Shown: one piece after another, positions 4,413 through 51,915 of the stretch | How positions within the stretch are numbered: the first letter of the stretch is position 1 | How the letters are laid out: each line of letters opens with the position of its first letter | Assembly: GCF_019431355.1 (NCBI RefSeq) | Contig: NZ_CP080269.1 | Coordinates: 3,319,001-3,383,000 of the forward strand | Origin: Paenibacillus sp. R14(2021) | GTDB lineage: Bacteria > Bacillota > Bacilli > Paenibacillales > Paenibacillaceae | Direction: 5' to 3' | Length of the DNA: 64,000 nt | Position numbers and translations under genes: made by a program | The notes under the pieces: generated by a model | The model's database searches: none | What the model saw: the letters and a program-made list of their open reading frames with translations, nothing else | What the model was told of the DNA's origin: nothing

Positions 4413-4416
4413 TCCC

Positions 4417-7704: not shown

Positions 7705-8598
7705 TCATTTTTCCTTTTCCAGCTGCACCCATGTCTCGAATGTTCGTTCACCTTCGTTCAGAACGATCACCCTCGCTCCGCGTTCCAGCTTGCCGTACGT
7801 GTTATGCCCTGTCACGCGGCCGTAGCACAGCTGGATGCCGTAGAGCTCGCCGACGTAATCATTATCGTGGTCATGACCGGCGAAGGTTCCCATGACATCC
7901 CCCATTTCCAGCATCGCCGTGAACAGTCCGCTGTTGAGCTTAGGGCAGCACACTTCCTCGCCTTTGTGGCCTGTTATCGTCCCATGCTTGGAAACTTGCT
8001 CGTATTCCGGAATGGGAATATGGAAAAAGGCGAGCGCTGGCAGCGGTCCGCCGTTCTTCCTGCTGGATTTGCTGGATTCCGCCATGTACCACTGGATCTG
8101 ATCCGGATGAATCCAGCCGTAGCCTTCAACCGGATCCGGTCCGTAGTCGCCCGAATCGAAGAAATACAGCACGGCTGCGTCCGCATCGCCCGTCGAGCTT
8201 GCGATGGCCAACCGATAATTGCCTACGCCGTGTATGTCCTCTGGGCCGTCCTCCGCCAGGCTCGATTCAAATTCGGCTAAAATGCCGTTCAATTCCCGGC
8301 GCGTGATGCCTTTCTCCGAATCATGGTTCCCGTAAATAACGGCGAACGGAATCCCGGATCGCACGACGCCGGCAATGGCGCGGCGAAAGGTTCCTTCTTG
8401 ATCCTCCACGTCATAGCTGGAGATCACATCGCCTGTAAGGACAATGAGGTCCGGCTTCCGCTCCGCGATGATTTGCTCTATGAGCGCCAGCGTTCGAGCA
8501 TCCTTTTCGATTTCAAACCCGTCTTTAACATGCATATCCGTGAATTGCAGGATATGGAACGTGCCGTCTGGCCGATATTTCAATTCAGGACGCGCCAT
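7705..8598 (-). CDS. Calcineurin-like metallophosphoesterase
   Basis: A protein of 297 residues; the start at 8598 follows AGGAGGG with good spacing. It has the full two-metal phosphoesterase set: FTDMH (D-x-H, residues 21-23), LTGDVIS, YGNHDSE and AGHDHDND near the C-terminus. No signal peptide, so cytoplasmic. It is the last gene of the fucosidase operon, 42 bases behind it. Substrate is not predictable from the family. In this setting it could remove phosphate from a phosphorylated sugar or inositol fragment; that is inference. Confidence 0.85.
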   Translation of the reverse strand: MARPELKYRPDGTFHILQFTDMHVKDGFEIEKDARTLALIEQIIAERKPDLIVLTGDVISSYDVEDQEGTFRRAIAGVVRSGIPFAVIYGNHDSEKGITRRELNGILAEFESSLAEDGPEDIHGVGNYRLAIASSTGDADAAVLYFFDSGDYGPDPVEGYGWIHPDQIQWYMAESSKSSRKNGGPLPALAFFHIPIPEYEQVSKHGTITGHKGEEVCCPKLNSGLFTAMLEMGDVMGTFAGHDHDNDYVGELYGIQLCYGRVTGHNTYGKLERGARVIVLNEGERTFETWVQLEKEK

Positions 8599-8640
8599 GT
8601 GAACCCTCCTTGTCTTGTCTTGTCTCGCTCTCAAGACCAT

Positions 8641-10065
8641 TTAATGACTTAAGTACGCTTGGAAGCTTCTCAACGTCGGAAACCATCTGGATGCCGTGAT
8701 GGTCAGCTTGATGTAACGGGCGCTCACCTTGCCAAACCGGCAAATGCGCTTATAGCCAACCACCGTTCCTTGATCCAGCGCCTTCCATTCTTCGCCGTCT
8801 TTCCATGTCAGAACGAAGCTCTCAATGCGCTGACCGAGTCGGATCTGCTCCATGAGGATGATGGCATCGAAGGATTGCTTCTCCTGCAGGTCGATAATGA
8901 GTTCAGCTTGTTCCATGCCTTCCAGCGGTCGCCAGAAGGTATCCGAATTGCCGTCAAACAGCTTGTCTGCCCCATGACGGTCGTCCAATTCCGACGAAGC
9001 AGCAGCGGTCGCTTTCGCACACAAATCGACCGGGAACATGTTCCGAATTGCCTGCCCGAGTTCCCCCATCCGCTTCGCATCGTTCTCATGGATCAAGCCG
9101 CGCCTGTCGGGCGGCAGGTTCAGCAGGAAGGCAGCATTGCCCCCGACCGACCGAACATACACGTTCAGCAGTTCGTCGAGCGTCTTGACGCGATCATCCT
9201 CTTCGGCATGATAGAACCAACCTGGGCGGATCGAGGTATTCACTTCCGCAGGGTACCAGACAAGTTCTCCCGCATCCCGTATGACGTCGCGGCTCCCAAG
9301 ATCGTCGTCCTGCGAATGGATACGCTTGGCAAATTCGCCGTCGTCCGCTTGTTGCGAATTTTCCTGAATCTTCTCGTTGTCCCGCATCGACGCCGGTACG
9401 ACGCTCCATTCCGCCGTGCGCGTATGGCCGGCTTCATTGCCGCACCAGCGCACATCCGGCCCGCATACCGAGATAACGGCATTCGGCTGCAGCTCGCGGA
9501 TCAAGCGATAATAACGATCCCAGTCGTATACCTGCCTTTTGCCGTTCGGCCCTTCCCCGCATGCGCCGTCGAACCATACACAAAAAATATCGCCGTATTC
9601 CGTCAGAAGCTCCCGGAGCTGGTTCAAGAAATAAGCATTGTAAGCCTCCGAATCGCCATAGGTCGGTTCATGCAGATCCCATGGCGAGAGATAGATGCCG
9701 AAGCGTATGCCGCCAGCGCGGCAAGCGTCGGCAACCTCGCGCACCAAATCGCCTTTGCCGGCTTTCCACGGACTGCTTTTGACCGAATGATCGGTATACC
9801 GGCTCGGCCATAAGCAGAATCCGTCATGATGCTTGCAGGTTAAGATCAATCCCTTCATCCCCGCCGATTTGCATACTTCTACCCACTGGGAGGCGTCGAG
9901 CTCCGCCGGATTGAAGACAGCCGGGTCCTCGCTGCCGTGACCCCATTCCAAATTCGTAAAGGTATTGACCGTATAGTGAATGAAGCCGTAGAACTCCATC
10001 TCCTGCCAAACGAGCTGGCGTTCGGACGGCGTTACCAACGCGGCAGCCTGTATGGTTTGATCCAT
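8641..10065 (-). CDS. Alpha-L-fucosidase, GH29, with a discoidin-like C-terminal domain
   Basis: A protein of 474 residues. Catalytic GH29 domain in residues 1-330: MEFYGFIHYTVNTFTN, LTCKHHDGFCLWPS, and VWFDGACGEG, whose aspartate (about residue 165) is the expected nucleophile. Residues about 345-474 look like an F5/8 type C (discoidin) carbohydrate-binding domain. No signal peptide, so it acts on imported oligosaccharide. An in-frame ATG lies nine bases earlier (10074), but the AAAAGGA motif suits the start at 10065. It lies between pepA and the phosphoesterase in the first carbohydrate operon. Exact linkage specificity cannot be read from the sequence. Confidence 0.88.
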   Translation of the reverse strand: MDQTIQAAALVTPSERQLVWQEMEFYGFIHYTVNTFTNLEWGHGSEDPAVFNPAELDASQWVEVCKSAGMKGLILTCKHHDGFCLWPSRYTDHSVKSSPWKAGKGDLVREVADACRAGGIRFGIYLSPWDLHEPTYGDSEAYNAYFLNQLRELLTEYGDIFCVWFDGACGEGPNGKRQVYDWDRYYRLIRELQPNAVISVCGPDVRWCGNEAGHTRTAEWSVVPASMRDNEKIQENSQQADDGEFAKRIHSQDDDLGSRDVIRDAGELVWYPAEVNTSIRPGWFYHAEEDDRVKTLDELLNVYVRSVGGNAAFLLNLPPDRRGLIHENDAKRMGELGQAIRNMFPVDLCAKATAAASSELDDRHGADKLFDGNSDTFWRPLEGMEQAELIIDLQEKQSFDAIILMEQIRLGQRIESFVLTWKDGEEWKALDQGTVVGYKRICRFGKVSARYIKLTITASRWFPTLRSFQAYLSH

Positions 10066-10104
10066 TGTATTCATCCTTTTCGCAATCGATTTGGACGGAC
10101 CCTG

Positions 10105-11559
10105 TTACGACTTGTCCTGCTTCATCAGATAGGCGGCCAGCATGCGTGCGCCGAAGCCCGTCGCTCCAACGGCGAACTCGCCTTTGGCGGAGGAGGCGTC
10201 TTTCGGACCGTTCATATCGATATGCGCCCAAGCAAGGTCAGGATGAACGAATTTACGCAGGAATAAAGAAGCCGTAATCGCTCCCGCTTCGCCTACCCGG
10301 CTGATGTTGCAGGCGTCGGCATAATCGCTGTCCATATACGATTCGTATTCATCCACCAAAGGGAGCTGCCAAACGTGCTCGCCAAACGGTTTGCCTGCGG
10401 TTTTCAGGGCGTCCGCCAAACGGTCATCGCCCAAGATGCCGGCAACCTTGGAGCCGAGCGCGCCGACGACGGAATACGTCAGCGTGGCCAAATCGATCGC
10501 CTCCGCCGCGCCGAGGCGATGGGCGTAAATCAACGCATCGGCCAGGATAAGCCGCCCTTCCGAGTCGGTATTCCCGACTTGAACGGTCAGCCCGTTCGCG
10601 TAGCGGATTAATTCGCCCGGCAGCATCGAGCGATCCGACGGCGTATTCTCCGCAGCGGGGACAAGCACGGTCACATTCGCTGCCGCGCCGCTTTGAACCA
10701 GAATATCAAGGGCTCCAAGCACCGCTGCCGCTCCGGCCATATCCATGCGCATGTCGCTGATGTCATTGTCGCGCTTGAGGCTGATGCCGCCCGTATCGAA
10801 GGTGATCCCTTTGCCGATCAGAGCGGTATACGGTTTCGCGGCATCAGAACAGTAACGGATCTCCAAAAATACGGGAGGATGCGCGCTTCCTCGGCCTACC
10901 GCAGCCAGTCCGGCGAATCCGAGGCGTTCCAGCGCTTCGCCCTCATGCACGGTGACTTGCGCCTGCGTACCCGCGAAGCGCGCCACTGCCCGCTCCGCCA
11001 AATTGCGGGGCCGCAGCCGGTTCGGCGGCTCATTGGTCAGATCGCGTGCCCACATCGTGCTGCGCGCGCGCACTTCGCCGAGGCGAACAGCCCCAGTCCA
11101 TGCCGGACTCTTCTGCCCAATGAAACGCATGACGGCAGGGTCAGCATCCGCCCGGCCCTTATACGTATCGAACACATACGTACCGAGCAGTGCTCCCTCG
11201 ACCCATGCGGCAATCTCGTCCGCAGCCTCGCTGCCGAAGAGCCCATGAGGCTGCAGCAGCTCGAACGATACGTCAGCCGCCTGCCGCTTCTCCTTCAGCA
11301 GCGCCCGTCCCGCATTGCCCGCCGCCTCGCGGATCCCGGCAGGTTGAAACTTCGTTCGCTCTCCCAACCCGACAAGCATGAGGTCGGGCTCGCCGCTGTG
11401 GCCGTAAAACCAAGTGACGGCGTGTCTCGCACCCATATAAGGCTGGATTTTATCGGCGGCCGGCGTCTTCCGCAGCTTCGGCAGCTGAGGCAAGTCCTCG
11501 ATATATATGGGCATGATCAGCGTATCCGTCGAACGATCTCCTTCGATTTCGAATTTCAT
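10105..11559 (-). CDS. pepA: Leucyl aminopeptidase, peptidase family M17
   Basis: A protein of 484 residues. The start at 11559 follows AAGGGGGA. The C-terminal catalytic domain has IGKGITFDTGGISLK, MRMDMAGAA and NTDSEGRLILADAL, which supply the lysine, aspartates and glutamate that bind the two metal ions and the P-loop-like signature (usually NTDAEGRL). It is a cytosolic, probably hexameric, enzyme that removes N-terminal residues from peptides. Its presence in a sugar operon, 19 bases after the kinase gene, is unusual. It would fit if the imported compound carries a peptide, as in glycopeptides; that is inference. Confidence 0.93.
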   Translation of the reverse strand: MKFEIEGDRSTDTLIMPIYIEDLPQLPKLRKTPAADKIQPYMGARHAVTWFYGHSGEPDLMLVGLGERTKFQPAGIREAAGNAGRALLKEKRQAADVSFELLQPHGLFGSEAADEIAAWVEGALLGTYVFDTYKGRADADPAVMRFIGQKSPAWTGAVRLGEVRARSTMWARDLTNEPPNRLRPRNLAERAVARFAGTQAQVTVHEGEALERLGFAGLAAVGRGSAHPPVFLEIRYCSDAAKPYTALIGKGITFDTGGISLKRDNDISDMRMDMAGAAAVLGALDILVQSGAAANVTVLVPAAENTPSDRSMLPGELIRYANGLTVQVGNTDSEGRLILADALIYAHRLGAAEAIDLATLTYSVVGALGSKVAGILGDDRLADALKTAGKPFGEHVWQLPLVDEYESYMDSDYADACNISRVGEAGAITASLFLRKFVHPDLAWAHIDMNGPKDASSAKGEFAVGATGFGARMLAAYLMKQDKS

Positions 11560-11578
11560 GTAAGCGCTCCCCCTTTTC

Positions 11579-12538
11579 TCATTGCGCAATCTGCCAATGA
11601 TCCGTTGTTCGTCCAGCCTTCTCCGCAATGAACTGTTCCATGGCCGCATGGTTCAGCGCTTCAGGGCTGCCGCCGAATTGGCTGACGGACATAGCGCCGC
11701 ACGCATTGGCGTACAGCAGGCATTGCTCGGGCGGCTGACCCGTCAAGAAGCCGTACATATAGCCAGCGTTGAACGCGTCCCCCGCGCCGGTCGTATCCAC
11801 CACCGGCACCTCGAAGCCCGACCTGTACAGCATGCGTCCGTCAACCGCCGCCGCGGCGCCCATGGCTCCGAGCTTTAGCACGGTATGCCGGCTGTGCGCC
11901 GACAAGGTCTTCAAGCAGGCCTCCGCCGATGAGCAGCCCGTATAATGCTGCGCTTCGACTTCGTTCATAAAGAAGACATTCACTTCCTCCATCAGCTCGA
12001 ACACGCCCTTATACCACTCGCCGGTATCATCCCAGCCCACATCGATGGAAACGGTCAAGCCAAGCGCTTTGATCCGCCGGGTCATGTCCATGTACTCCGC
12101 ATGATTCCGGCTCCCGCGATAGCCTGTCAAATGCACATGCCTGCCCAGAACGACGCTTCGCATGTCGAGCTGCTGCAGGTCGAGCTCCGCATTGGAGCCC
12201 ATATACGAGATGAAGGAGCGGTCCTTCTCGGGATTTATCGCAATCGATATCCCGGTGTTGTTGCGATTGCTCGTACGTATGAACCTGGTATCGATTCCAG
12301 ATTGATTGAACCGTTCTTTGACGAATTGGCCGAAGCCGTCGTCTCCCAGAACGCCGTTGAAGGCGGTTCTTAAGCCGAGCCTGGCGAGCGACAGGCTGAA
12401 CAAAGCCGCGCCGCCGCCAACATGCAGCGTTATATTGCGAACAAACACCTCTTGCCCCGGCCCGGGCATGTCGCTGCACCCCGCTACGACCAAATCGACA
12501 TTGGCGTCTCCGATTACGATGACATCATATTGTTTCAC
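11579..12538 (-). CDS. PfkB-family carbohydrate kinase, first paralogue
   Basis: A protein of 319 residues with a GTG start at 12538 and GGAGG upstream. It opens with the ribokinase-like DVIVIGDANVDLVV and has VGGGAALFSLSLARLG and the catalytic anion-hole motif DTTGAGDAFNAGYMYGF near residue 250. It phosphorylates a sugar or polyol with ATP; the substrate is unknown. It closely resembles the kinase at 46497-47456 along its whole length. In both places the kinase follows a closely related LacI gene, so a LacI-kinase cassette was duplicated. Confidence 0.88.
   Translation of the reverse strand: MKQYDVIVIGDANVDLVVAGCSDMPGPGQEVFVRNITLHVGGGAALFSLSLARLGLRTAFNGVLGDDGFGQFVKERFNQSGIDTRFIRTSNRNNTGISIAINPEKDRSFISYMGSNAELDLQQLDMRSVVLGRHVHLTGYRGSRNHAEYMDMTRRIKALGLTVSIDVGWDDTGEWYKGVFELMEEVNVFFMNEVEAQHYTGCSSAEACLKTLSAHSRHTVLKLGAMGAAAAVDGRMLYRSGFEVPVVDTTGAGDAFNAGYMYGFLTGQPPEQCLLYANACGAMSVSQFGGSPEALNHAAMEQFIAEKAGRTTDHWQIAQ
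12286..12299. promoter_or_regulatory. Operator-like 14-mer inside the first PfkB gene
   Basis: TGGTATCGATTCCA differs by one base from the perfect palindrome TGGTATCGATACCA found upstream of the second ABC operon. It encodes the G-I-D-T segment of the kinase, so codon coincidence is a real alternative. Confidence 0.3.
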
Positions 12539-12580
12539 TACGAATCACATCCTCCGGCAGTGATGATCTCGATGGGTCCC

Positions 12581-13597
12581 TTATGTCGCTTTCATCCTGT
12601 TCATGCAGCTTTCGCGCGCCGCCACGCGGTGCTCGAGAATGATATCCTCGCTTGGAATCGTTTCGCCCGTAATTTGCTTCAGCAGTACGTCCATCGTCAC
12701 TTTCCCCATCTCATGGATCGGCTGCTCCATGGAAGTCAGCGTCGGGCGAGCCAGCTCCGTCAATTGGCTGCCGTCAAACCCCATGATGGAGATATCCTCG
12801 GGCACGCGCAAATGATGATCGCGGATGCAGTTCATCGCGCCGACCGCCATATCGTCGCTCACGGCGAACACCGCCGTAGGCGGATTGTTCGAGCCGAGCA
12901 TGAGCTTCATTTGCTCGTAGCCGCTCTTCACCTTGTAATCGCCAAACCGAATATGCGCCTCCACCAGCTTCTTGCCGCTCGCGGACATTGCGTTTCGGTA
13001 GCCGATGTAACGGTTCTGACCCGAGGTAATGTCGCGCATGTCGCCGCCGATGAAGCCGATGGCGTCATGACCCAGCTCGATCAAGTAATTCGTTGCGTCG
13101 TAGGCCGCCTTGTAATCGTCCACGATGACCGATATGAACTTCTGATCCATCGGCTTCACGCTGGAGAAAATAACGGGAATTGGCATTCTATGAATAAGGG
13201 CCCGAATCGGCTCGTTGATCTTCTCGTGCATGATGATAATGCCTTCCACGCGCATCTCCTGGAACACATTCAGATACTTCAGCTCTTTGTCGATATTCTC
13301 GCTGATGTTGCACACGAGTAGATTGTAGTCGTTGGCGCTCGCCACTTCCTCGATGCTGCTAAGAATCGTCGCGTAGAAGCTTGACGTTAAATCCGGCACG
13401 ATGACCCCGATCAGGTTCGTTTTATTGCGCACCAAGCTGCGCGCGATATGGCTTGGCGCATAGCCGAGCTCATCGATCGCCCTGTTCACCTTGGCCTTCA
13501 GATCGTCCTTGACATATTTCTCCCCGTTCAAAACCCTTGAGACCGTGGTCACAGATACGCCGGCCAGCTTCGCCACGTCTTTGATTTTGAATTGCAT
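12581..13597 (-). CDS. LacI/GalR-family repressor, first paralogue
   Basis: A protein of 338 residues. The N-terminal helix-turn-helix reads KIKDVAKLAGVSVTTVSRVL followed by the hinge helix (SHIARSLVR) and a periplasmic-binding-like sensor domain from about residue 60 (NLIGVIVPDLTSSFYATILS). It controls its own operon, most likely through the 14-bp sites at 18467 and 17454. The recognition segment VSVTTVSRVLNGEKYVKDDL is identical to that of the second LacI (47486-48505), so both should read the same operator. It lies between the PHP gene and the kinase gene. Confidence 0.93.
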   Translation of the reverse strand: MQFKIKDVAKLAGVSVTTVSRVLNGEKYVKDDLKAKVNRAIDELGYAPSHIARSLVRNKTNLIGVIVPDLTSSFYATILSSIEEVASANDYNLLVCNISENIDKELKYLNVFQEMRVEGIIIMHEKINEPIRALIHRMPIPVIFSSVKPMDQKFISVIVDDYKAAYDATNYLIELGHDAIGFIGGDMRDITSGQNRYIGYRNAMSASGKKLVEAHIRFGDYKVKSGYEQMKLMLGSNNPPTAVFAVSDDMAVGAMNCIRDHHLRVPEDISIMGFDGSQLTELARPTLTSMEQPIHEMGKVTMDVLLKQITGETIPSEDIILEHRVAARESCMNRMKAT

Positions 13598-13669
13598 CGT
13601 ACTTCACCTCATCCGTCACGTTAAACATCCGAAGCTAGAATTTCGACAGAGGTACTGAAATTCCTGTTT

Positions 13670-14560
13670 CTACGCCTGCGTAACGAATAACGGCTGGGAG
13701 AACGCGGCATAACCGCCTTCCAGATAAACGGCGATCCGAACATAGCCTTCGTCGCCTCTGCAGGCATACCTCGCCTGCTTGATCCGGCCTGTCGATTCTT
13801 GGAGCACCCGGCCGTCACTGCCGAAGAACGTTACGTATTTATACATCTTATCCAGCAGCTCGTTCGAACGGAGGTCGGCAATGACCGTATCGCCCTCGAC
13901 CCTGATCGCGTCGAAGCCGTAGCCAGTCGACACGTAGAAGCTGCCCCGCTTGATCGCTTCCATGATGGACGCCTTGTCGTTATCGATTGCCTGAACGACA
14001 TTCCAGGCCCGCTTCTCTTGACCGTAGACATGGGAATCGTCGTTCCCGAAGCCCCAGATTCTGCGTCCCGCCGAGAGAAGCGCATCCCATTTGTCGAATG
14101 CAATGTCGTACTCCGGATTGCCGTCGCCGTTATAGACTTCGATGCCGAGGCAGCCTTCCAAGCGCAGCATATCCTCGAGCAGCCAGTAATTCGAGAAGAA
14201 GCGGTTCGGGTGCACGAATACGGCGAATCCGCCGTTCGCCGACGCCGCATCCGCCAAGCGCTGGTAGTTCTCGATTGTGAATGCATTGCTGTAGCCCTCC
14301 ATGATGCTGTGAGGCGGTTCGACGAGCAGCATATGCGTTTGCCGGCTGCTCACTTCAATCGCTTCGAAAACGACGGGAATCTCCCGCTCGCCCTCGTGCT
14401 TCGTAATTTTGTCGTGATCGGAAATGCCTAGGAAATCGTAGCCGCCGTACATTTTATATACCGTTTCGAGCGGAAACCATCCGTCGCTGTTCGTGGTATG
14501 GTTATGAAAGCTTCCTTTCAGCCAAACGCCTGCTTGTTCGTAAGGATTATTGATTATCAT
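13670..14560 (-). CDS. PHP-domain phosphoesterase
   Basis: A protein of 296 residues. The N-terminal GSFHNHTTNSDGWFPLE, GISDHDKITKH, and later FVHPNRFF and GFGNDDSHVYG supply the histidine/aspartate metal ligands of the polymerase and histidinol phosphatase (PHP) family. No signal peptide. It is cotranscribed with the ABC permease (28 bases) and the LacI gene. PHP proteins of this length often hydrolyse small phosphate esters or act as nucleases. A sugar- or inositol-phosphatase role would fit the operon but is not shown by the sequence. Confidence 0.82.
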   Translation of the reverse strand: MIINNPYEQAGVWLKGSFHNHTTNSDGWFPLETVYKMYGGYDFLGISDHDKITKHEGEREIPVVFEAIEVSSRQTHMLLVEPPHSIMEGYSNAFTIENYQRLADAASANGGFAVFVHPNRFFSNYWLLEDMLRLEGCLGIEVYNGDGNPEYDIAFDKWDALLSAGRRIWGFGNDDSHVYGQEKRAWNVVQAIDNDKASIMEAIKRGSFYVSTGYGFDAIRVEGDTVIADLRSNELLDKMYKYVTFFGSDGRVLQESTGRIKQARYACRGDEGYVRIAVYLEGGYAAFSQPLFVTQA

Positions 14561-14588
14561 GGCTGCCGCCTCCCTTTCCGAAGCTGCT

Positions 14589-15497
14589 TTATTCTTTCAT
14601 GGAGCCGATCATTACTCCTTTAGCAAAATACTTCTGGACGAACGGATAGATGAGAATAATCGGCGTGACGACGATGACGATCGTGGCCATCTTGAGGGAA
14701 TTGCTCGTGATCTGAATCTTCTCAAGCATTTCGTATTTGACCCCTGCCGACTGATTCAGCGTATCCCTCATCGCCTCCGCGCTCATCAGCATTTCTTGCA
14801 GCAGCGTGGACAACGGCCGCAGGCTCTCCTTGCGGATGAAGAACGCGCCAGTGAACCAGTCATTCCAATGCCCCACAGCCGAAAATAACGAAATGACCGC
14901 AATGACCGGCCTGCTGAGCGGCATGATAATACGCAGGAAAATCGTAAAATCGTTATAACCGTCAATGCGCGCCGATTCTTCGAGGCTCGGATGAAGCTGT
15001 TGGAAGAAGGTTCGGAATATGATCAGATTCCAGGCGCTGTACAGGCTTGGAATGACGTACACCCAAATGTTGTTCGTCAGATGAAGCGATTTAAGCAGCA
15101 TGTAATACGGAATGATGCCCCCGCCGAACAGCATTGTGAAGAAGATCAGCATCATGAAGAATTTCCCGCCGGGGAGCGTCTTGCTCTTCAGTGCGTATGC
15201 CGCCATTGCCGTTAGAAATACGCTTGCAGCCGTGCCGACGACCGTGCGGAACAGAGATACCGAGAACGCCGTGCCAATGCTTGCCGTCTGAAACGCATGA
15301 TTGAAGTTATCCAGCGACCACATTCTCGGCCAGAAGAAGATCCCGCCCTTCTCCGCGTCTTTGCCAGGGTTGAAGGCTAAGGCCACAATGTTCAGGAACG
15401 GAAGAATAATCGATAAGCACAGCACGATAATGACCACATAATTGATGACCTTAAACAGCTTCTCTCCACTGCTGAGCTTATAAAATTCACTGCCCAT
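14589..15497 (-). CDS. ABC sugar importer permease, LplC/YtcP type (CUT1)
   Basis: A protein of 302 residues with six predicted membrane segments and the inner-membrane-permease loop EESARIDGYNDFTIFLRIIM (EAA motif), which docks the ATPase. The N-terminal SGEKLFKVINYVVIIVLCLS and FNPGKDAEKGGIFFWPRMWS are typical of Paenibacillus LplC-like permeases. It pairs with the permease at 17462. No ATPase gene is nearby; such systems use a shared MsmX-type ATPase. GGAGGG precedes the ATG. Confidence 0.92.
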   Translation of the reverse strand: MGSEFYKLSSGEKLFKVINYVVIIVLCLSIILPFLNIVALAFNPGKDAEKGGIFFWPRMWSLDNFNHAFQTASIGTAFSVSLFRTVVGTAASVFLTAMAAYALKSKTLPGGKFFMMLIFFTMLFGGGIIPYYMLLKSLHLTNNIWVYVIPSLYSAWNLIIFRTFFQQLHPSLEESARIDGYNDFTIFLRIIMPLSRPVIAVISLFSAVGHWNDWFTGAFFIRKESLRPLSTLLQEMLMSAEAMRDTLNQSAGVKYEMLEKIQITSNSLKMATIVIVVTPIILIYPFVQKYFAKGVMIGSMKE

Positions 15498-15624: not shown

Positions 15625-17373
15625 TTAGAACTTCACTTTTGTTTTGGGATCGGCATTCTTCTGTCCGACCAGCTTCAGGTAGTCATCCAGTCCGGCAGCT
15701 CTCAGCTGCTTCAAGGCGTTATCCAAAATCTTCTTCGCATCGTCCTCAGACTTGCTGTAATACGCCTGAACCAGGCTGTCGTTGTAGTTATCGAACGCCG
15801 CCTTCAGCTCCGTGCCGTTCGCGAACTCGCCCAGGAACGAGGTCGGCGTATACGCATCGATGACTTCTGCGTTCTTCCGTTTGTCGGCCCAGTTCCAATA
15901 ATCCGCGATCACCTTCGCGCCTTTGCTCTTGCCTTGATTCAGCTTATCGCCCCATTGGTCTTCACCGAAATCGGCCGTGTTGTCGTTATCCGTGCTGCCG
16001 AGAATGTTGCCCCAGCTGTTGCCCACGCCGTCAAAGCCGAGCTTCTTCGCTTCGTTCGGGTCCTTCGCTTTCAAATCGATTACTTCTTGCTTCACAAGCG
16101 GATTGCCGTCTGCATCCAGCGTGTAATCGCGGCCTTCCAAGCCGTATTTCCAGAGTAGCTTGCCTGTGCGGCTGGCCAAGAAGTCAGCGAACTTCATAAT
16201 ATCCTCCGGATTCTCCGTCGTGGTTGGAATCGCCCAAGCGGAATAACCGGATTTGAAATCAACCTTCATCTGATAAGGGCTGTCGACGTTATTAAGCGGA
16301 CCAAGCGGCAGATAGTGGCCGTCCTGCTCGAAGTCCTGCATGCTGTGCATGTCGGCGATGATTGCCCACGAGCCGTTCAATGCGCCTTCTGTCGCGCGGC
16401 TCTCGTCCATCGTGAAGAATTCCGGCTGCAGCAGCTTCTCGCTCAGCAGCTTCTTAACGAAATCAACCCGCTTCAGCGCATAAGGCGTCTCGGCCTCGTG
16501 CAGAATCTGTCCGTCCTTGGACTGCATGATGCGCTGATCGTCGGCGCCCCACTCCAAGTCCTGGAACAGTCTGCCGATTTCGTGGCCGCCCCAATAGCCG
16601 GGGCCGATCGGCGTAACGTCTTTGCCGTTCTTGTCTTTGAAGTTGCCTGCTTTGATCTTCTTCGCGAGGTCGTACAGCTGATCCGTCGTCGTAATCGTAC
16701 GCGGATCGACGTTCAGCGCTTCCGCGATATCCTTGCGGATGAAAGGACCGCCGATGAGCGGCACGCCGCCCGTATAACCGCCTTCGCGATTGATGTTCAT
16801 ATGGGCGAAGTAGGCCGAGCCGTTAAACTCCGGACGGAACATGACGCCGAACTGCGTGTCGAGCGGCAGGAAGCCGTCCTGCAAATATTTGCTGTATACC
16901 TTGGTGTCCTTCATAAGCGGCGCCAAGTCTGTAAACATGCCTTCGCGTGCTGCTTTCAGCACGACCGGCATCTCGGGACGGCCGCTATTGTTCAAGTAGA
17001 AGGCGATGAAGTCGGGCAGGTCGCCCGATGCCAGACCAGCGACCAAGCCGTCGATGGAATGGTCGGCTTTCATGATTTGAATCTCGAAGTCTACGCCCGT
17101 TAATTCCTTGATCTTCGCTTTAACCTCCGGGTTCATATCCTCGGTGTAATCGTCAGTTCCCATGAACACAAGCCCTTTAATCTTGCGGTCGGCGATCCAT
17201 GTCGCGGGTTTAGTCGTATCTGTATCTGACGCGGCTGTGTTCTTTTGTCCGTCCGCTTCCTTCCCTGCATTCGCATTGCCCTTATCGTTGCCCGTATTAT
17301 TGCTGGTACAGCCGGAAATCAGTACAACCACGAGAAGTGAAATTGCGAACAATTTGACCCAAAGCTTGTTCAT
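15625..17373 (-). CDS. Extracellular solute-binding lipoprotein of family 1 (LplA/YtcQ type)
   Basis: A protein of 582 residues. The signal peptide ends in LISGC, giving a lipidated cysteine near residue 22, followed by an Asn/Gly/Lys-rich linker. The long form (over 500 residues) with NVDPRTITTTDQLYDLAKKI and FNGSAYFAHMNINREGGYTG is typical of the LplA-like oligosaccharide-binding proteins of Paenibacillaceae. It captures the sugar at the outer membrane face for the two permeases that flank it. AAAAGGGG precedes the ATG. The actual ligand is unknown; the operon suggests a fucosylated oligosaccharide. Confidence 0.92.
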   Translation of the reverse strand: MNKLWVKLFAISLLVVVLISGCTSNNTGNDKGNANAGKEADGQKNTAASDTDTTKPATWIADRKIKGLVFMGTDDYTEDMNPEVKAKIKELTGVDFEIQIMKADHSIDGLVAGLASGDLPDFIAFYLNNSGRPEMPVVLKAAREGMFTDLAPLMKDTKVYSKYLQDGFLPLDTQFGVMFRPEFNGSAYFAHMNINREGGYTGGVPLIGGPFIRKDIAEALNVDPRTITTTDQLYDLAKKIKAGNFKDKNGKDVTPIGPGYWGGHEIGRLFQDLEWGADDQRIMQSKDGQILHEAETPYALKRVDFVKKLLSEKLLQPEFFTMDESRATEGALNGSWAIIADMHSMQDFEQDGHYLPLGPLNNVDSPYQMKVDFKSGYSAWAIPTTTENPEDIMKFADFLASRTGKLLWKYGLEGRDYTLDADGNPLVKQEVIDLKAKDPNEAKKLGFDGVGNSWGNILGSTDNDNTADFGEDQWGDKLNQGKSKGAKVIADYWNWADKRKNAEVIDAYTPTSFLGEFANGTELKAAFDNYNDSLVQAYYSKSEDDAKKILDNALKQLRAAGLDDYLKLVGQKNADPKTKVKF

Positions 17374-17453: not shown

Positions 17454-17467
17454 TGGAAACGTTACCA
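17454..17467. promoter_or_regulatory. LacI-type (or cre-like) operator at the end of the permease gene
   Basis: TGGAAACGTTACCA fits the TGGNATCG-like 14-mers found at the promoters and also the CcpA cre consensus (W)TGNAANCGNWNNCW. It overlaps the permease stop codon, 80 bases ahead of the binding-protein start. Confidence 0.45.
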
Positions 17468-18412: not shown

Positions 18413-18466
18413 AAGTGCGAATCACCTTCATTCTGTAAGATGAATGCCATTTGAAAAAATGTTCTC

Positions 18467-18519
18467 TGGAATCGTTACCATATTAAGCTAAAAAATAAAG
18501 CCAATTCTCGTGCTGTCAA
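18467..18519 (-). promoter_or_regulatory. Promoter and LacI-type operator of the first carbohydrate operon
   Basis: On the minus strand TTGACA (18519-18514) is followed after 16 bases by TATTTT (18497-18492). Directly after this, where transcription would begin, lies TGGTAACGATTCCA (18480-18467), an imperfect version of the palindrome TGGTATCGATACCA. An operator at this place would block initiation or promoter escape, as LacI-family repressors do. CcpA binding is an alternative because the site also fits a cre. Confidence 0.55.
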
Positions 18520-21616: not shown

Positions 21617-21651
21617 AGCTGTCAACAACTCCCTCCGCTTATTGCTGGCGA

Positions 21652-22920: not shown

Positions 22921-22924
22921 ACGA

Positions 22925-23878: not shown

Positions 23879-24011
23879 TTTACCGCCTCCTCGAAATCGG
23901 ATATGCTGTTCTATTCTATTCCGAACATTCGCCAAAAGCGTACGCCTTCTTCGCAGATTGCCCATCGACATGCTCGGCTCGAATCCCGTGAGACGGGCAG
24001 GCATCCGGGAA

Positions 24012-24040: not shown

Positions 24041-24061
24041 TTCAACGTATGATGATTGGTT

Positions 24062-41169: not shown

Positions 41170-41171
41170 AT

Positions 41172-42107: not shown

Positions 42108-42144
42108 AGCCATACTCCTCCTTTGGACTAACTGAGATAGAGCC

Positions 42145-46475
<4,331 letters not shown>

Positions 46476-46496: not shown

Positions 46497-47456
46497 TTAC
46501 ATCGCCGCATCGGATACGGCCGCTTCTGCTTCATGCCGAAGGATAAAAGCTTTCAAACCATCCAGATTCGGTGTGCCTGTGCTTCCGCCGTATGCACCGA
46601 CGGAAAGCGCGCCGCAGACGTTTCCATATTGAAGGCTCGTTACGACGTCCATCCCCGACAGATAACCATAGAGATAACCGGCATTGAAGGAATCTCCGGC
46701 ACCGGTCGTATCGACCGCCTTCACCCGATAAGCCGATTGACGCGTCACCACACCGTTTTTCATGGCAATGGCGCCATCCGCTCCCAGCTTGATAACGACA
46801 TGGCTGCAATACGTGGACATGTACCGAAGACTCTCTTCGACGTCATCCGATCCTGTATAATGAAGCGCCTCGGTCTCGTTCATTAAGAACACGTCGAAAT
46901 GGCGCATATAGTCGAAGATGCAGCTGTCCCATTCGCCCGAATCATCCCAGCCTACGTCGCAGGACAAGGTGACCCCCTTTTCCTTCAAGGATTGCACGAA
47001 TGCCATATATGTCTCATGATTACGTCTTCCTCTATAACCTGTTACGTGGACATGCCGGCCCCGCGTGATCGGCTCCAGATCGAGCTCGTCTACCTGCAGC
47101 TCCAGATTGGATCCTGCATAGGTAATGAAGGATCGGTCTTTATCGGGGTTAAACGCGATCGAAACGCCGGTATTATGAACCGTACTCGTCTTAATCATTG
47201 TGGTATCGATACCATATTTGGCGAAGCGTTCGCGAATAAAACGGCCATTGCCGTCGTCTCCCAAAACGCCGTTAAACGCCACTTGCAGGCCGAGCTTCGC
47301 GAGAGAGACCGCGAATAAAGCAGCCCCCCCGCCAACGTGCATCATCATGTTATCGACAAAAACTTCCTGGCCCGGCTGGGGAACCTCATCGCACCCAACC
47401 ACCACAAGATCAATATTAGCGTCACCAATGACAACTGCGTCGAATGTTGTTTCCAA
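46497..47456 (-). CDS. PfkB-family carbohydrate kinase, second paralogue
   Basis: A protein of 319 residues with a TTG start at 47456 and GAGGGAGAG upstream. FDAVVIGDANIDLVVVG opens it and KAVDTTGAGDSFNAGYLYGY is the ATP/anion-hole motif. It matches the first kinase (11579-12538) in length and most motifs, and likewise follows a LacI gene. Substrate unknown; a released monosaccharide such as mannose or fucose-derived sugar is possible. Confidence 0.88.
   Translation of the reverse strand: METTFDAVVIGDANIDLVVVGCDEVPQPGQEVFVDNMMMHVGGGAALFAVSLAKLGLQVAFNGVLGDDGNGRFIRERFAKYGIDTTMIKTSTVHNTGVSIAFNPDKDRSFITYAGSNLELQVDELDLEPITRGRHVHVTGYRGRRNHETYMAFVQSLKEKGVTLSCDVGWDDSGEWDSCIFDYMRHFDVFLMNETEALHYTGSDDVEESLRYMSTYCSHVVIKLGADGAIAMKNGVVTRQSAYRVKAVDTTGAGDSFNAGYLYGYLSGMDVVTSLQYGNVCGALSVGAYGGSTGTPNLDGLKAFILRHEAEAAVSDAAM
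47201..47214. promoter_or_regulatory. Perfect operator 14-mer inside the second PfkB gene
   Basis: TGGTATCGATACCA here is identical to the core of the palindrome upstream of the same operon (51791-51804). It encodes the kinase G-I-D-T segment at the place equivalent to the site at 12286, so conservation of the protein may explain part of it. Confidence 0.35.
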
Positions 47457-47485: not shown

Positions 47486-48505
47486 TTAGGGTTGCCCGTT
47501 ATAAGCCTTGCAGCTGTCCCGGTCAACAAGATTATGCTGTAGGATCACGTCGGTAAACGTCCTGTTTGGATCGCCCTTGATCATCGCCAGCAGCGTTTCG
47601 ACCGTGACCTCTCCCATTTCTAATATGGGCTGCTCCATGGAGGACAAGCGCGGACGGACCTGCTCCGTCAGCTGGCTTCCGTCAAATCCAATAATGGATA
47701 CATCATCCGGCACCTTCAGCCCATGGTCATGAATGCAGTTCATTGCCCCGACCGCCATATCGTCGCTCACCGCGAAGACGGCCGTTGGCGGCGTCTCATT
47801 CGCCAAGATTTCCTTCATGAGGGCATGTCCGCTTTGCGTCTTGTAATCACCGAACCGGATATAATCGCTGACGATCGCAAGCCCGCAATCGGTCAGCGCA
47901 TCGCGATAGCCGAGATAGCGGTTCTGCCCGGACGTTACGTCTCTCATATCCCCGCCGATAAATCCGATTCGCGTATGACCAAGGCTGATCAAGTGACGGG
48001 TAACGTCATAAGATGCAGCATAATCATCGATAATGACGGAGACAAACTCCTGATCCGCCGGTTTCACGCTGGAGAACAGGAACGGAATATCCAAGCTCTG
48101 AATCAGTTCGCGGATTTCCTCGTTTAGCTTCTCATGCATAATAATGATGCCGTCCACGCGCATCTGCTTAAACACCTGCAAATATTTAAGCTCTTTATCG
48201 GTCTCCTCCAGAATGTTGCAGACCATGAGGTTATAGTCGTTGCGGCTGGCCGTCCGCTCGATCGTGCTCAAGATCGTGGAATAGAAGCTCGACGTAATAT
48301 CGGGCACAATGACGCCGATCAGATTCGTTTTCTTCAGCACTAGGCTTCTTGCGATATGGCTCGGTGAATAGCCCAGCTCATCGATCGCGCGTTTCACTCG
48401 TTCCTTGAGATCGTCTTTGACGTACTTCTCGCCGTTCAATACGCGCGACACCGTCGTTACGGACACGCCGGCGTGCTTTGCGACATCCTTGATTTTGGGC
48501 GCCAT
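47486..48505 (-). CDS. LacI/GalR-family repressor, second paralogue
   Basis: A protein of 339 residues counted from the ATG at 48505; an ATG nine bases earlier (48514) is an alternative, and neither has an ideal ribosome binding site. The DNA-binding part KIKDVAKHAGVSVTTVSRVL and the following residues to KDDL are identical to the first LacI over the recognition helix. The sensor domain differs more, for example NPPTAVFAVSDDMAVGAMN versus ETPPTAVFAVSDDMAVG. It is encoded behind two permease genes and likely represses the operon through the operators at 51786 and 51858. Confidence 0.92.
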   Translation of the reverse strand: MAPKIKDVAKHAGVSVTTVSRVLNGEKYVKDDLKERVKRAIDELGYSPSHIARSLVLKKTNLIGVIVPDITSSFYSTILSTIERTASRNDYNLMVCNILEETDKELKYLQVFKQMRVDGIIIMHEKLNEEIRELIQSLDIPFLFSSVKPADQEFVSVIIDDYAASYDVTRHLISLGHTRIGFIGGDMRDVTSGQNRYLGYRDALTDCGLAIVSDYIRFGDYKTQSGHALMKEILANETPPTAVFAVSDDMAVGAMNCIHDHGLKVPDDVSIIGFDGSQLTEQVRPRLSSMEQPILEMGEVTVETLLAMIKGDPNRTFTDVILQHNLVDRDSCKAYNGQP

Positions 48506-48554
48506 GATTATCATCCTGCCTTTGTTTTCTAAGGATCGATTGCTGCGTCTAGCA

Positions 48555-49370
48555 CTAGCTCTTAACTGCACCTTCCATGATGCCTGCAATAAACTGCCGG
48601 CTCACCAATAAGAAGAAGATAATGAGCGGAACAGTCGCAAGCAGGGTGCCAGTCATAACCATGGAATAGTCGGCCGTATGCGCGGACTTGAGCTGCTGCA
48701 GCGCCAGCGTAAGTGTGAATTTGGACGTGTCCGTCAGAATAATTAACGGCCATAAGTAATCTTCCCATACCCCCATGAAGATCGTAATCGCCAGAAACGC
48801 CAGCGCGGGTCTAAGAATTGGCAGCGCGATTCGCCAATACAAGCCGAATTTGTTGCAGCCGTCGATCGTGGCCGCCTCGAGCATGTCGTCGTGGATTGCA
48901 AGCGCGTACTGCCTCATCCAGAAGATCCCGAATGCGCTGGCCATGCCCGGTACGATCAGCGCCTTATAGCTGCCGAGCCATCCCATCTCTTTAATGATGA
49001 TAAACTGCGGCACGAGCAGCATCTGCGCTGGAATCATCATCGTAGCGATCATTAAGTAGAAGAGCACCTTGGAGCCTGGGAATTTAAACTTCGCAAACGT
49101 AAACCCCGTTAATGAATTGAAAAACAACTGAAGCACGCTGCTCGTCACCGCGATAAACAGGGTATTGAAGAAGGAGCGCGTAAAGTTGATATTCTCCATG
49201 ACATGCTGATAGTTCGTAATAAAATACGTACCGAAGGTCAGCTTGGGCGGAAACGCAAAGATGGCGCTCGTCTCATTCGTCGACATGACAACGAGCCAGT
49301 AAAACGGGAATATGGACAATAGAACACCCGCCAGCAAAAACGCATGCACGACTATTTTTTTTGAAGTCAT
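48555..49370 (-). CDS. ABC sugar importer permease, MalG/AraQ type (CUT1)
   Basis: A protein of 271 residues; AAGGAG ahead of the ATG at 49370 defines the start. Six membrane segments and the coupling loop LEAATIDGCNKFGLYWRIAL. It starts IVVHAFLLAGVLLSIFPFYW. Partner of the permease at 49385, from which it is 14 bases away. No ATPase gene in the operon. Confidence 0.93.
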   Translation of the reverse strand: MTSKKIVVHAFLLAGVLLSIFPFYWLVVMSTNETSAIFAFPPKLTFGTYFITNYQHVMENINFTRSFFNTLFIAVTSSVLQLFFNSLTGFTFAKFKFPGSKVLFYLMIATMMIPAQMLLVPQFIIIKEMGWLGSYKALIVPGMASAFGIFWMRQYALAIHDDMLEAATIDGCNKFGLYWRIALPILRPALAFLAITIFMGVWEDYLWPLIILTDTSKFTLTLALQQLKSAHTADYSMVMTGTLLATVPLIIFFLLVSRQFIAGIMEGAVKS

Positions 49371-49384
49371 CTTATCTATGCTCC

Positions 49385-50269
49385 TTAATCGTCCGATCTG
49401 TTGAAGAGCTTCCAGTTTAATACGGATATGATGCCAATAATGATAAACAGTACCCACGATACAGCCGCTGCATAGCCGTAGTTCTGATAGTTAAAGCCTT
49501 CCCGGAACATATAGAGGACAATGGTATCCGAGCCCGGATAGGGCGATTGATTGCCTGCCAATACTTGCGGCTCCGTGAAAATTTGAAATCCGCCGATGGT
49601 AGACATCATCACGGAGAATAAGATAATCGGTCTCAGCATCGGAATCGTTATTTTCGTAAACGTTTGGAGCGTCGTTGCGCCGTCCAGATGGGCAGCTTCA
49701 TATAAGTCTTTGGGAATGCGCTGCAAGCCGGACAAATAAATAATGGCGTTATAGCCCATATATCTCCAACTGATCATGGCCGCGATCACCACCCGAACCC
49801 CTGCGCTGGAGTTGAACCATGCGATTTTGCTCAGGCCAAGATTCTCGAGCACGTAATTGATCAGTCCGTATTCATTGCCAAACATCGATTGGAAAATAAT
49901 AACAACGGCGACCATCGCCGTAATATTCGGAAGAAAGTACGCGATTCTAAAAAAACCTTTGAATTTCACGATCGACAGATTGATAACGAAAGCGACAATG
50001 AGCGAGCAGACGAGCATCGGGCCGTTAGACAACAGCCACAGGGCAATATTGTTGATTAAGGCCTGCCAGAACGTTGGATCGTTGAACATGTACACAAAGT
50101 TGCTGAACCCTACCGACTGCATCTCCCCGATTCCGTCCCACTTATGAACGGATAGATAGATCGAGAAGAAGATTGGAAATACAGAGAAGATCAGGAACAA
50201 GATATAGAAAGGAGAAATAAACAGATATAGCGTTCTGCTCTTGTAAATGTCTTTTAATAAGCCTCCCAT
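49385..50269 (-). CDS. ABC sugar importer permease, MalF/UgpA type (CUT1)
   Basis: A protein of 294 residues with six membrane segments. TLYLFISPFYILFLIFSVFP begins the first helix and YEAAHLDGATTLQTFTKITI is the ATPase-docking loop. GGAGGAG precedes the ATG. It lies across a hairpin from the binding-protein gene. Confidence 0.93.
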   Translation of the reverse strand: MGGLLKDIYKSRTLYLFISPFYILFLIFSVFPIFFSIYLSVHKWDGIGEMQSVGFSNFVYMFNDPTFWQALINNIALWLLSNGPMLVCSLIVAFVINLSIVKFKGFFRIAYFLPNITAMVAVVIIFQSMFGNEYGLINYVLENLGLSKIAWFNSSAGVRVVIAAMISWRYMGYNAIIYLSGLQRIPKDLYEAAHLDGATTLQTFTKITIPMLRPIILFSVMMSTIGGFQIFTEPQVLAGNQSPYPGSDTIVLYMFREGFNYQNYGYAAAVSWVLFIIIGIISVLNWKLFNRSDD

Positions 50270-50356: not shown

Positions 50357-51634
50357 TTAGTGCGAAAGCTGACGCTTGATTTTCTCCTGCGCGTCCGTCC
50401 AGGCTTTCTCCGGATCTGCTTTCTTCGTATCGACGAAGCCAAGCGACTCGACGAGTACGTTCAGCACCATGTCATCTCTTGCATCCGTATGAGCGACTTT
50501 GACGTCTTTGGCCGCATCGGCGAATACAGGGCTCAGATCTTGGCCGCCGAAGAATTCATTCTTGTTCACCATATCAGGCTTCGTGTAGATCTCAGGCGTG
50601 GACGGATAGTTGCCGAATTCCTTGTAGCCGACCATCAAATTCTCTGGGCTTACGAGGAACTTGATCACTTCATAGGCTTCCTTCTGATGCTCCGAGGATT
50701 TCAGCACGCCCATGAAGGAGCCGCCTTGGTTGCCTACGCCGCCCGGCGGATAAGCAATGTTCCATTTGCCTTTCGTATCCGGAGCGGCGCCGATCAAGTC
50801 GCCGACAGCCCAGGATGCGCCGGTAAACGAAGAAACCTTATTGTTGTTCATCGCCGCGTTCTTCTCGGAATCATTGGAGAACGGGAATGTCAGGCCTGCT
50901 TGGTACGCCTTCACCGAAGCATCCCAAGCGGATTTAATTGGGGCTTGGTCGCCAATGAACTTACCGTCTTGATCAAATAACCCGGTGCTGTTCTGGCCGA
51001 TCAAGCTTCTGAAAATATCCACGATCGTTCCCGACTGCGTTCCTGTCGCATCTTTGACTTTCTTCAGCAGGTTGAAATAATCATCCCATGTCTTCACCTG
51101 TGCTTTGATCGCATCGGGTGTGCTCGGCACGCCGGCTTTTGCGAACAAGTCGCTGCGGTAGTAGAGCACGACCGGAGCAACGTCGATCGGCAGCCCGATC
51201 ACGTATTTATCGTCGCTAGTCGCTGCCATCTTCCATTTCCAGTCCAGGTACTTGGGCTGAACATCGCGAGCGCCTTGATCGTAAAGGTTTGCGAATTTGT
51301 CTTTATAAGCAAGCATGGACGAGATCCAGCTGTCCATGGCTACAATATCGGGGCCGTCTCCGCCCCCGGTAATCGTCGTTTTCAGCTTGGTCAAGTAGTC
51401 GCCTCCGGAAGGAAGCTTCTCTGCCTTCAGATCGATGTTCGGAAACTGCTTCTTGGCAGCTTCAATCGTCGAATCCGATATTGCACCGTTCCAATACCAC
51501 ATTTTCAACGTCACCTTTTGTCCTGCAGCGCTTTCATTTCCACCGGAATTGTTTGTTTTGCTTTGACCGCAAGCAGTCACGACAAGCATAAAGGATAGGG
51601 CTAGCAGCGTTCCGGATAAGGCTTTGAGTTTCAT
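50357..51634 (-). CDS. Extracellular sugar-binding lipoprotein of family 1
   Basis: A protein of 425 residues; GGGGGAA precedes the ATG at 51634. The signal peptide ends in VVTACG, giving the lipidated cysteine near residue 22, followed by a Ser/Asn/Gly linker. KVTLKMWYWNGAISDSTIEA and GGDGPDIVAMDSWISSMLAY are typical of the CUT1 binding proteins. First gene of the 20-kb operon; it captures the oligosaccharide that the mannosidases and galactosidase then trim. The ligand is not known from sequence. Confidence 0.93.
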   Translation of the reverse strand: MKLKALSGTLLALSFMLVVTACGQSKTNNSGGNESAAGQKVTLKMWYWNGAISDSTIEAAKKQFPNIDLKAEKLPSGGDYLTKLKTTITGGGDGPDIVAMDSWISSMLAYKDKFANLYDQGARDVQPKYLDWKWKMAATSDDKYVIGLPIDVAPVVLYYRSDLFAKAGVPSTPDAIKAQVKTWDDYFNLLKKVKDATGTQSGTIVDIFRSLIGQNSTGLFDQDGKFIGDQAPIKSAWDASVKAYQAGLTFPFSNDSEKNAAMNNNKVSSFTGASWAVGDLIGAAPDTKGKWNIAYPPGGVGNQGGSFMGVLKSSEHQKEAYEVIKFLVSPENLMVGYKEFGNYPSTPEIYTKPDMVNKNEFFGGQDLSPVFADAAKDVKVAHTDARDDMVLNVLVESLGFVDTKKADPEKAWTDAQEKIKRQLSH

Positions 51635-51785
51635 GCAGTGTTCCCCCAATACTGGATTCGAATTAAGTTGAATAAAGCATTCCGTTCTTCACATTCGTTG
51701 CCGTCTTTACCTGAGTATTCCCTGAACAAACCCGATTAATAGAATCCGGCCGAAAACTCTGCACCTCCTGATGACGTTCAATCAA

Positions 51786-51809
51786 AAATCTGGTATCGAT
51801 ACCAGATTT
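51786..51809. promoter_or_regulatory. Distal LacI operator (perfect 24-bp palindrome)
   Basis: The 14-bp core TGGTATCGATACCA (51791-51804) is extended to both sides by AAATC and GATTT, giving a perfect 24-bp palindrome. It lies about 70-95 bases downstream of the promoter in the untranslated leader; its centre is 67 bp from that of the proximal site, so one tetramer or two dimers could loop the DNA. Confidence 0.7.
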
Positions 51810-51857
51810 GGATGATGCACGTTTTCAAAATACGATTTGTTCGATGATATCGTTTTC

Positions 51858-51915
51858 TGAAATCGATACCATATGAACTTGTGTTCAGTATAAACCCTCG
51901 CATCCGGTTTGACAA
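51858..51915 (-). promoter_or_regulatory. Promoter and proximal LacI operator of the 20-kb operon
   Basis: On the minus strand TTGTCA (51915-51910) and TATACT (51892-51887) are 17 bases apart, a good housekeeping promoter. The proximal operator TGAAATCGATACCA (51858-51871, plus-strand reading) lies about 10-20 bases downstream of the start point and matches 12 of 14 bases of the distal core. Confidence 0.65.

Follow-up and report, generated by a model that had tools for sequence, protein, structure and literature searches.

A predicted LacI-controlled regulon joining glycosidases, phosphoesterases and a partial inositol pathway in Paenibacillus sp. R14(2021)

Gene content and organization of the locus

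The 5.98-Mb single-contig genome of Paenibacillus sp. R14(2021) carries, within a 64,000-bp stretch of contig NZ_CP080269.1 (positions 3,319,001 to 3,383,000; G000:C1:3319001-3383000 in our numbering, hereafter the window), two minus-strand operons that combine ATP-binding cassette (ABC) importers, glycoside hydrolases (GH) and phosphoesterases with a partial set of inositol (iol) genes. We consider it rather probable that the two operons form one LacI-controlled regulon for the use of a sugar- and phosphodiester-bearing inositol derivative, in which an aldo/keto reductase (AKR) and a TIM-barrel protein (TIM) bypass IolG and IolE.

Gene identities were obtained from Pfam and NCBIfam profile matches. 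These recovered all the importers, GH29, GH2, GH125, GH38, phosphoesterases, PfkB kinases, AKR and iolD, iolC and iolA listed in the original prediction, which had been made from the letters of the window. Operon 2 runs from 51649 to 31806 and operon 1 from 18412 to 7705, and their genes are given below in the order of transcription. Gaps between genes do not exceed 127 bp in either operon, which is consistent with one transcript each.

Operon 2
50357–51649, minus: ABC solute-binding protein, importer 2 (Pfam SBP_bac_8)
49385–50269, minus: ABC permease, importer 2 (Pfam)
48555–49457, minus: ABC permease, importer 2 (Pfam; open reading frame (ORF) as listed, the real start may be further in)
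47486–48589, minus: LacI2 regulator (Pfam; 70% identical to LacI1)
46497–47456, minus: PfkB2, predicted sugar kinase (Pfam, NCBIfam; 56% identical to PfkB1)
45183–46475, minus: GH125 alpha-mannosidase (PF06824, 559 bits)
42145–45192, minus: GH2 LacZ-type beta-galactosidase (Pfam)
41172–42152, minus: AKR (PF00248; predicted oxidation of an inositol, or glycosyl, ring)
40417–41172, minus: TIM-barrel metallo-lyase, AtOGE-like (sequence and structure matches; predicted beta-elimination or dehydration)
37246–40386, minus: GH38 alpha-mannosidase (Pfam)
35341–37206, minus: IolD, 3D-trihydroxycyclohexane-1,2-dione (THcHDO) hydrolase (TIGR04377, 957.9 bits, cut-off 715)
34237–35232, minus: IolC kinase (TIGR04382, 409 bits, cut-off 300)
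32755–34215, minus: IolA, methylmalonate-semialdehyde dehydrogenase (TIGR01722, 645 bits, cut-off 448.5)
31806–32696, minus: class II aldolase (TIGR01859, class II fructose-bisphosphate aldolase, 399 bits, cut-off 343)

Operon 1
17462–18412, minus: ABC permease, importer 1 (Pfam)
15625–17373, minus: lipoprotein-like solute-binding protein, importer 1 (from position and N-terminus; no Pfam or NCBIfam match)
14589–15497, minus: ABC permease, importer 1 (Pfam)
13670–14560, minus: PHP-type CehA/McbA metallohydrolase (NF038032, 77.9 bits, just under the cut-off of 80; no Pfam match)
12581–13597, minus: LacI1 regulator (Pfam)
11579–12538, minus: PfkB1 sugar kinase (Pfam, NCBIfam)
10105–11649, minus: M17 leucyl aminopeptidase (Pfam; absent from the original prediction)
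8641–10074, minus: GH29 alpha-L-fucosidase with F5/8 domain (Pfam)
7705–8640, minus: calcineurin-like metallophosphoesterase (Pfam)

A LacI operator shared by the two operons

The following promoter- and operator-like sites were identified in the two operons:

51910–51915, minus: −35 element TTGTCA of an operon 2 promoter-like sequence, with a 17-base spacer and TATACT at 51887–51892 (consensus match only)
51857–51872: LacI operator-like site 1 of operon 2, with 3 mismatches to CTGGTATCGATACCAG, just downstream of TTGTCA-17-TATACT
51790–51805: predicted LacI operator 2 of operon 2, the perfect palindrome CTGGTATCGATACCAG
18492–18519, minus: promoter-like TTGACA-16-TATTTT of operon 1 (consensus match only; such matches in the region are not above shuffles)
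18466–18481: predicted LacI operator of operon 1, reading CTGGAATCGTTACCAT on the complement of the minus strand, some 54 bp ahead of the first gene and just downstream of TTGACA-16-TATTTT
47200–47215: operator-like site inside pfkB2 (motif match)
12285–12300: operator-like site inside pfkB1 (motif match)

At up to three mismatches, the window held six sites against 0.13 expected; three belonged to the two promoters, each pfkB contained one, and the sixth (54066) lay within a spore-germination gene outside the operons. The symmetric motif NTGGWAWCGNTWCCAN was found in 40 of 43 stretches with AKR/TIM clusters (106 sites) and in none of 71 control GH38 loci without AKR/TIM, which were drawn from more varied taxa, while its reversed pattern did not occur in the 43. 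Three of these stretches are continuations without TIM (L130, L131, L135), and in seven pairs the stretches overlap or come from one contig; among the 40 bearing the operator, 28 had a site outside pfkB and 12 only inside it. At genome level, each of 31 TIM-positive genomes contained between 1 and 10 copies of the strict operator core (135 in total, reversed pattern 4), and 10 genomes without a close TIM contained 8 (reversed pattern 7). In the genome of R14(2021) itself, 11 operator-like sites were counted at up to one mismatch and 11 for the reversed control, that is, no excess, compared with 8 and 0 for the strict core; the operator argument therefore rests on the strict core and on conservation.

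Among 20 distal operator places that were examined, operon-1-type clusters with operators were found in G141 (L136) and in G063 (L137, with an 81% identical GH29), located 3.7 Mb from the GH/iol operon or on another contig, so that the pairing of the two operons appears to be regulatory rather than an accident of neighborhood. Seven of the 20 places had no recognizable regulon gene among the matches listed (L138, L139, L141, L144, L151, L153, L155). Taken as predicted sites conserved at both promoters and in relatives, the operators strongly support the co-regulation of operons 1 and 2 proposed in the original prediction.

The sites within pfkB may be intragenic auxiliary operators. The operator-consistent sequence there encodes the PfkB motif GIDT, and it was kept in 24 of 26 PfkB rows with GIDT (two genes counted twice; PfkB rows that lack GIDT were not considered) versus none of 11 IolC rows; codon use predicts the four GIDT codons together in about 3% of cases. 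The operator also precedes the gene for a 537-residue protein, X537, in the same genome (L127:9663-11276, about 959,662–961,275, with the operator at about 959,640) and in L099, L123–L125, L149 and L150; X537 is present in L065 as well. Its only Pfam feature was a C-terminal X25-like domain, below the cut-off in R14(2021) and above it in L125, no sequence match was found in the PDB, and a single-sequence structure model was unusable (mean predicted local distance difference test score 34). X537 is a conserved member of the predicted regulon and a candidate new glycosidase.

A sister regulon with a TTGGTATCGATACCAA operator, composed of PHP, GDPD and ABC importer genes and a LacI 50–54% identical, was observed in L140:6133-11285 and L154:8456-15775.

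The partial iol set and the AKR/TIM pair

The iol genes of the window do not include iolG, iolE or iolB. When the IolG and IolB of the same genome were used as tblastn queries, no match was obtained in the window at E ≤ 1e-3, and the sole counterpart of its IolE was TIM, at 22% identity. A complete operon (ABC importer-iolG-iolD-iolE-iolB-iolC-iolA-lacI; L011) is situated about 0.45 Mb from the window iolD, and the only IolE of the genome above the cut-off lies at 3.80 Mb. The window IolD, IolC and IolA are 68, 61 and 75% identical to the copies in that operon, and in a tree of 28 IolD rows the window copy grouped with AKR/TIM-linked genes in a clade of 12 rows (support 100/99), apart from the canonical copy of its own genome. 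By their profile scores, iolD, iolC and iolA are genuine, as originally predicted; they constitute a partial set beside a complete second operon. The gene called iolJ does encode a class II aldolase, which would act in the IolJ role; since it matches the general class II fructose-bisphosphate aldolase model, its specificity for 2-deoxy-5-keto-gluconate (DKG) phosphate is presumed.

TIM had been described as an IolE-like isomerase. Its score against the IolE model TIGR04379 (34.4 bits, cut-off 290) rules out that it is IolE, although an IolE-like activity is possible. Its ORF was listed as 40417–41307, and orthologs back a start near 41172. Of the solved structures, the one closest to TIM in sequence was the O-glycoside beta-eliminase (OGE) AtOGE (8bvk; about 30% identity), whose five metal or catalytic residues H132, H134, D163, H189 and E233 are all kept; the predicted barrel thus bears the HxH, D, H and E residues of the OGE family, the second histidine (H131) being replaced by glutamate in L030. 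Matches to TIM on plasmids were limited to nine records, all at 39% identity or less. The aldo/keto reductase superfamily has an Asp-Tyr-Lys-His catalytic tetrad, and D61, Y66, K91 and H131 of AKR, residues assigned by eye, were invariant among 12 sequences. Papers on the nearest solved structures of AKR gave no substrate hint. We infer that AKR and TIM produce the IolD substrate from an inositol derivative that may be a glycosyl-inositol, and that the pair probably takes the place of the two reactions with which inositol breakdown normally begins.

Distribution and gene neighborhoods in relatives

The family survey comprised 197 genomes, with TIM orthologs defined at 63% identity or more. Such orthologs occurred in 28 genomes, all of which carried iolD, compared with 109 of the 169 others (p = 2.6e-5); in 18 of the 28, TIM and iolD were no more than 8 kb apart, and in G129, G168 and G196 only 29–120 bp separated them. 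Nine genomes with iolD and AKR/TIM (G141, G008, G040, G050, G163, G197, G198, G201, G202) had neither iolG nor iolE above the cut-off. In G141, assembled as one contig, the lone iolD is located inside a GH125-GH2-AKR-TIM-GH38-iolD-C-A-J-B cluster. Six of 137 iolD-positive genomes lacked iolE, and TIM at 56% identity or more was present in five of the six, compared with 28 of the 131 with both genes (p = 0.003); G077, with a TIM match in two pieces (75–79%), belongs to this wider set and not to the 28 orthologs. In the sixth genome, G014, the iol operon (L132) contains an IolE-like ORF (54% over 195 residues), so that the lack of iolE in this genome is probably an artefact.

Gene order was compared in the best 80 GH38 loci of named genomes among the matches listed and in 29 regions around TIM orthologs, selected for holding TIM. 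The window order from GH125 to GH38-iolD-C-A-J, followed by iolB, was found in five regions (L098, L101, L102, L103 and L107, the last without a GH2 match). P. glycinis (L019) and P. artemisiicola (L020) showed importer-LacI-PfkB-AKR-TIM-GH38-iolD-C-A-B. In L099 and L104 the order was importer-LacI-PfkB-AKR-TIM-iolD-C-A-B, with no match to the window GH38, GH125, GH2 or GH29; X537 adjoins the L099 cluster. Cohnella phaseoli (L024) and P. dokdonensis (L025) have AKR-TIM-GH38-(GH125)-GDPD joined to the operon 1 set minus GH29, running on into iolD-C-A-B (L131 and L130, respectively). In L108–L111 and L122–L124, a canonical-type iol operon precedes AKR-TIM, after which come GDPD, GH38 or both (L122 has neither) and importer 1. 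Outside the family, Neobacillus niacini (L030) and N. kokaensis (L068) bear importer-metallophosphoesterase-GH38-EEP-AKR-TIM with iolC-A-D; iolB is present in L068 (68%), and L030 has merely a 27% IolB-like match. A PfkB of at least 50% identity was encoded in 31 of the 43 stretches, and GDPD in 13 (confirmed by Pfam for two).

The linkage of mannosidase and phosphoesterase genes to iol genes thus recurs in other genera, in varied gene orders and with several IolD lineages across Paenibacillaceae and Neobacillus. Of the stretches searched, L137 alone contained a close GH29 match, and in L152 its place is taken by GH4. In general, relatives do not keep the glycosidase and iol genes apart, although the stretches L018, L021 and L022, which have the GH125/GH2 version, and L114–L118, L120 and L121 carry the glycosidase cluster without iol genes. 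The split clusters L119, L125 and L126 showed no iolD in the stretch.

As for the surroundings of the operons, the 13.4 kb between them are occupied by a phenylalanine/tyrosine catabolic operon (window 19898–28522; Phe hydroxylase, FAH, AMP-ligase, HgmA, HPPD) and, downstream of the iol genes, by the gene for a large SLH protein, part of which is GH42-like (28658–31480); at E ≤ 1e-20 it was unmatched in the loci searched. GerA-type spore germination operons are located on both flanks (3044–7169 and 52138–55893), and glycine riboswitch aptamers lie at 63265–63385 on the minus strand and, as a tandem pair, at 63534–63746 on the plus strand.

Candidate substrates

The GH125, GH38 and GH2 enzymes point to mannose and galactose in the substrate and the iol genes to inositol, whereas the PHP and metallophosphoesterase proteins, together with GDPD in relatives, point to a phosphoester or phosphodiester; the phosphoesterases also suggest lipid head groups. 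A lipid-derived glycosyl-inositol is the most likely substrate class. Fungal glycoinositol phosphoceramides, actinobacterial phosphatidylinositol mannosides and glycosylphosphatidylinositol (GPI) glycans each fit the gene set in part. The mushroom glycoinositol phosphoceramide named in the original prediction is not singled out, as nothing favors it over phosphatidylinositol mannosides, GPI glycans or glycerophosphoinositol derivatives and the fucosidase is rarely kept; the literature search on these structures returned general papers only, and we regard a fungal substrate of this kind as a tentative possibility.

Proposed pathway and alternatives

According to the reading we prefer, the substrate would be taken up by the two importers and trimmed by the phosphoesterases (PHP, metallophosphoesterase, and GDPD in relatives) and by GH125, GH38, GH2 and GH29. 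AKR would then oxidize the inositol ring, and the OGE-like lyase would eliminate a beta-substituent (lost as water, as the final sugar or as phosphate), yielding THcHDO for IolD and bypassing IolG and IolE. The remaining steps would fall to IolD, IolB (encoded in the complete second operon), IolC, IolJ and IolA. Gene identities, linkage, operators and the lack of iolG and iolE above the cut-off in nine genomes come from sequence; the AKR and TIM reactions, the kinase role and the substrate are deduced. The hydrolytic trimming to free inositol proposed originally leaves both the AKR/TIM pair and the genomes without iolG/iolE unexplained.

In a more speculative version, which we hold to be possible and less probable than the preferred reading, AKR would oxidize a still glycosylated inositol ring and TIM would expel the sugar by beta-elimination, merging deglycosylation with the IolE dehydration and giving a glycosidase-independent entry into the iol pathway; the proposed products are a free sugar and, directly, the IolD substrate. 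Cleavage on the inositol side is proposed mainly because of the L112 cluster (1961–15196), composed of a ROK kinase, AKR, an importer, a ROK-type regulator, a glucosamine-6-phosphate isomerase (NagB-type) protein, TIM and iolD-B-C-A. No glycosidase was recognized in the stretch, and the gene set suggests a glucosaminyl-inositol that AKR/TIM would split at the bond between sugar and inositol.

Several observations weigh against the preferred reading. In ten of the 28 TIM-positive genomes, no iolD lies within 8 kb of TIM, and the kinship of the genomes inflates the statistics. The operator is absent in L030 and L068, both Neobacillus loci, and in L112. TIM occurs without AKR in stretches L119 and L126, whose genomes carry AKR in L142 and L147. 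A Blautia metagenome-assembled genome has importer-PfkB-GH4-X537-GH125-GH38 with no AKR, TIM or iol gene in the locus. Sub-cut-off IolG-like dehydrogenases, among them relatives of 210 bits (G040) and 294 bits (G201), and IolE-like TIM barrels exist and could substitute for the missing enzymes. The HxH/D/H/E metal site is common to IolE and OGE, so that dehydration and deglycosylation are not separable by site, and by fold the TIM model is roughly equally close to IolE and AtOGE. Finally, canonical iolG and iolE are found beside AKR/TIM in several genomes, including that of the window. A plain replacement of IolG/IolE everywhere was consequently rejected, and the pair must be more than a replacement.

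The pair could instead act on the sugar, oxidizing C3 of a terminal glycosyl and eliminating the aglycone as AtOGE does, with the freed inositol passing to the distant IolG/IolE. The solved structure closest to TIM in sequence, a 3-keto-glycoside eliminase, agrees with this, as does the presence beside PfkB, in L018, L022, L065 and L152, of GH4, a family whose mechanism is C3 oxidation and elimination (PMC10628242, from the portion consulted). We nevertheless judge this unlikely, since nine AKR/TIM- and iolD-bearing genomes have no iolE or iolG above the cut-off and this route would in addition call for a hydratase and a 3-keto-sugar reductase. Less probable still is that AKR, TIM and PfkB handle freed hexoses, for instance from mannose via fructose to fructose 6-phosphate, and that the iol genes serve only co-released inositol. 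The frequency of PfkB in the stretches, the solved structures closest to PfkB2 (IolC-like, ribokinase, 2-keto-3-deoxygluconate kinase and fructokinase) and the epimerases among AP_endonuc_2 barrels are in line with such a route; the tie of TIM to iolD in 28 of 28 genomes, the short distances between them in three, and the retention of TIM in genomes without iolE speak against it. Ordinary breakdown of mannose-rich N-glycans or yeast mannan, with iol genes adjacent by chance or hitch-hiking, seems very improbable to us: GH38 and GH125 pairs without iol genes are common (L052, L056, L059, L071, L072 and others), but the iol linkage recurs in different orders and IolD lineages, and operators are shared in Paenibacillaceae. 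Chance adjacency of the iol genes is disfavored by the same conservation and operators.

Significance and comparison with known systems

In soil, the head groups of glycosyl-inositol lipids could plausibly serve as nutrients, and the regulon supplies a defined gene set, a common operator and a testable enzyme pair. Our literature searches on the system and its substrates revealed no bacterial pathway joining the sugars of glycosyl-inositol lipids to inositol catabolism; they covered open-licence papers only and are weak evidence of novelty. If the proposal is true, oxidation-elimination chemistry would reach from glycosides to glycosyl-cyclitols.

N-glycan mannoside loci of the Streptococcus pneumoniae type, in which GH29, GH38 and GH125 occur together as they do here, differ in that the present locus adds iolD-C-A, AKR/TIM, phosphoesterases and LacI control. 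IolD, IolC, IolA and an IolJ-type aldolase are shared with the canonical Bacillus subtilis-type pathway (IolG-E-D-B-C-J-A), whereas iolG, iolE and iolB are missing from the window and AKR, the OGE-like TIM and glycosidases are in the operon. A survey takes iolB, C, D and E as core inositol genes, at least in the part consulted (PMC9430895); if the proposed bypass is true, surveys that count iolE as core could undercount inositol users. The levoglucosan pathway (PMC7676230), which proceeds through oxidation, elimination, hydration and reduction, has its first two steps in common with our proposal, on another substrate, and the sections consulted gave no sign of an iol link. TIM also shares its fold with the 3-keto-beta-glucopyranoside-1,2-lyases 8tcd and 8tct, compared by structure title. 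TIM resembles AtOGE (8bvk; PMC10628242) in fold, sequence identity and five aligned residues; in contrast to the C3-oxidizing flavoenzyme of that pathway, as described in the portion consulted, the likely partner of TIM is an aldo/keto reductase, and the genes sit with iolD.

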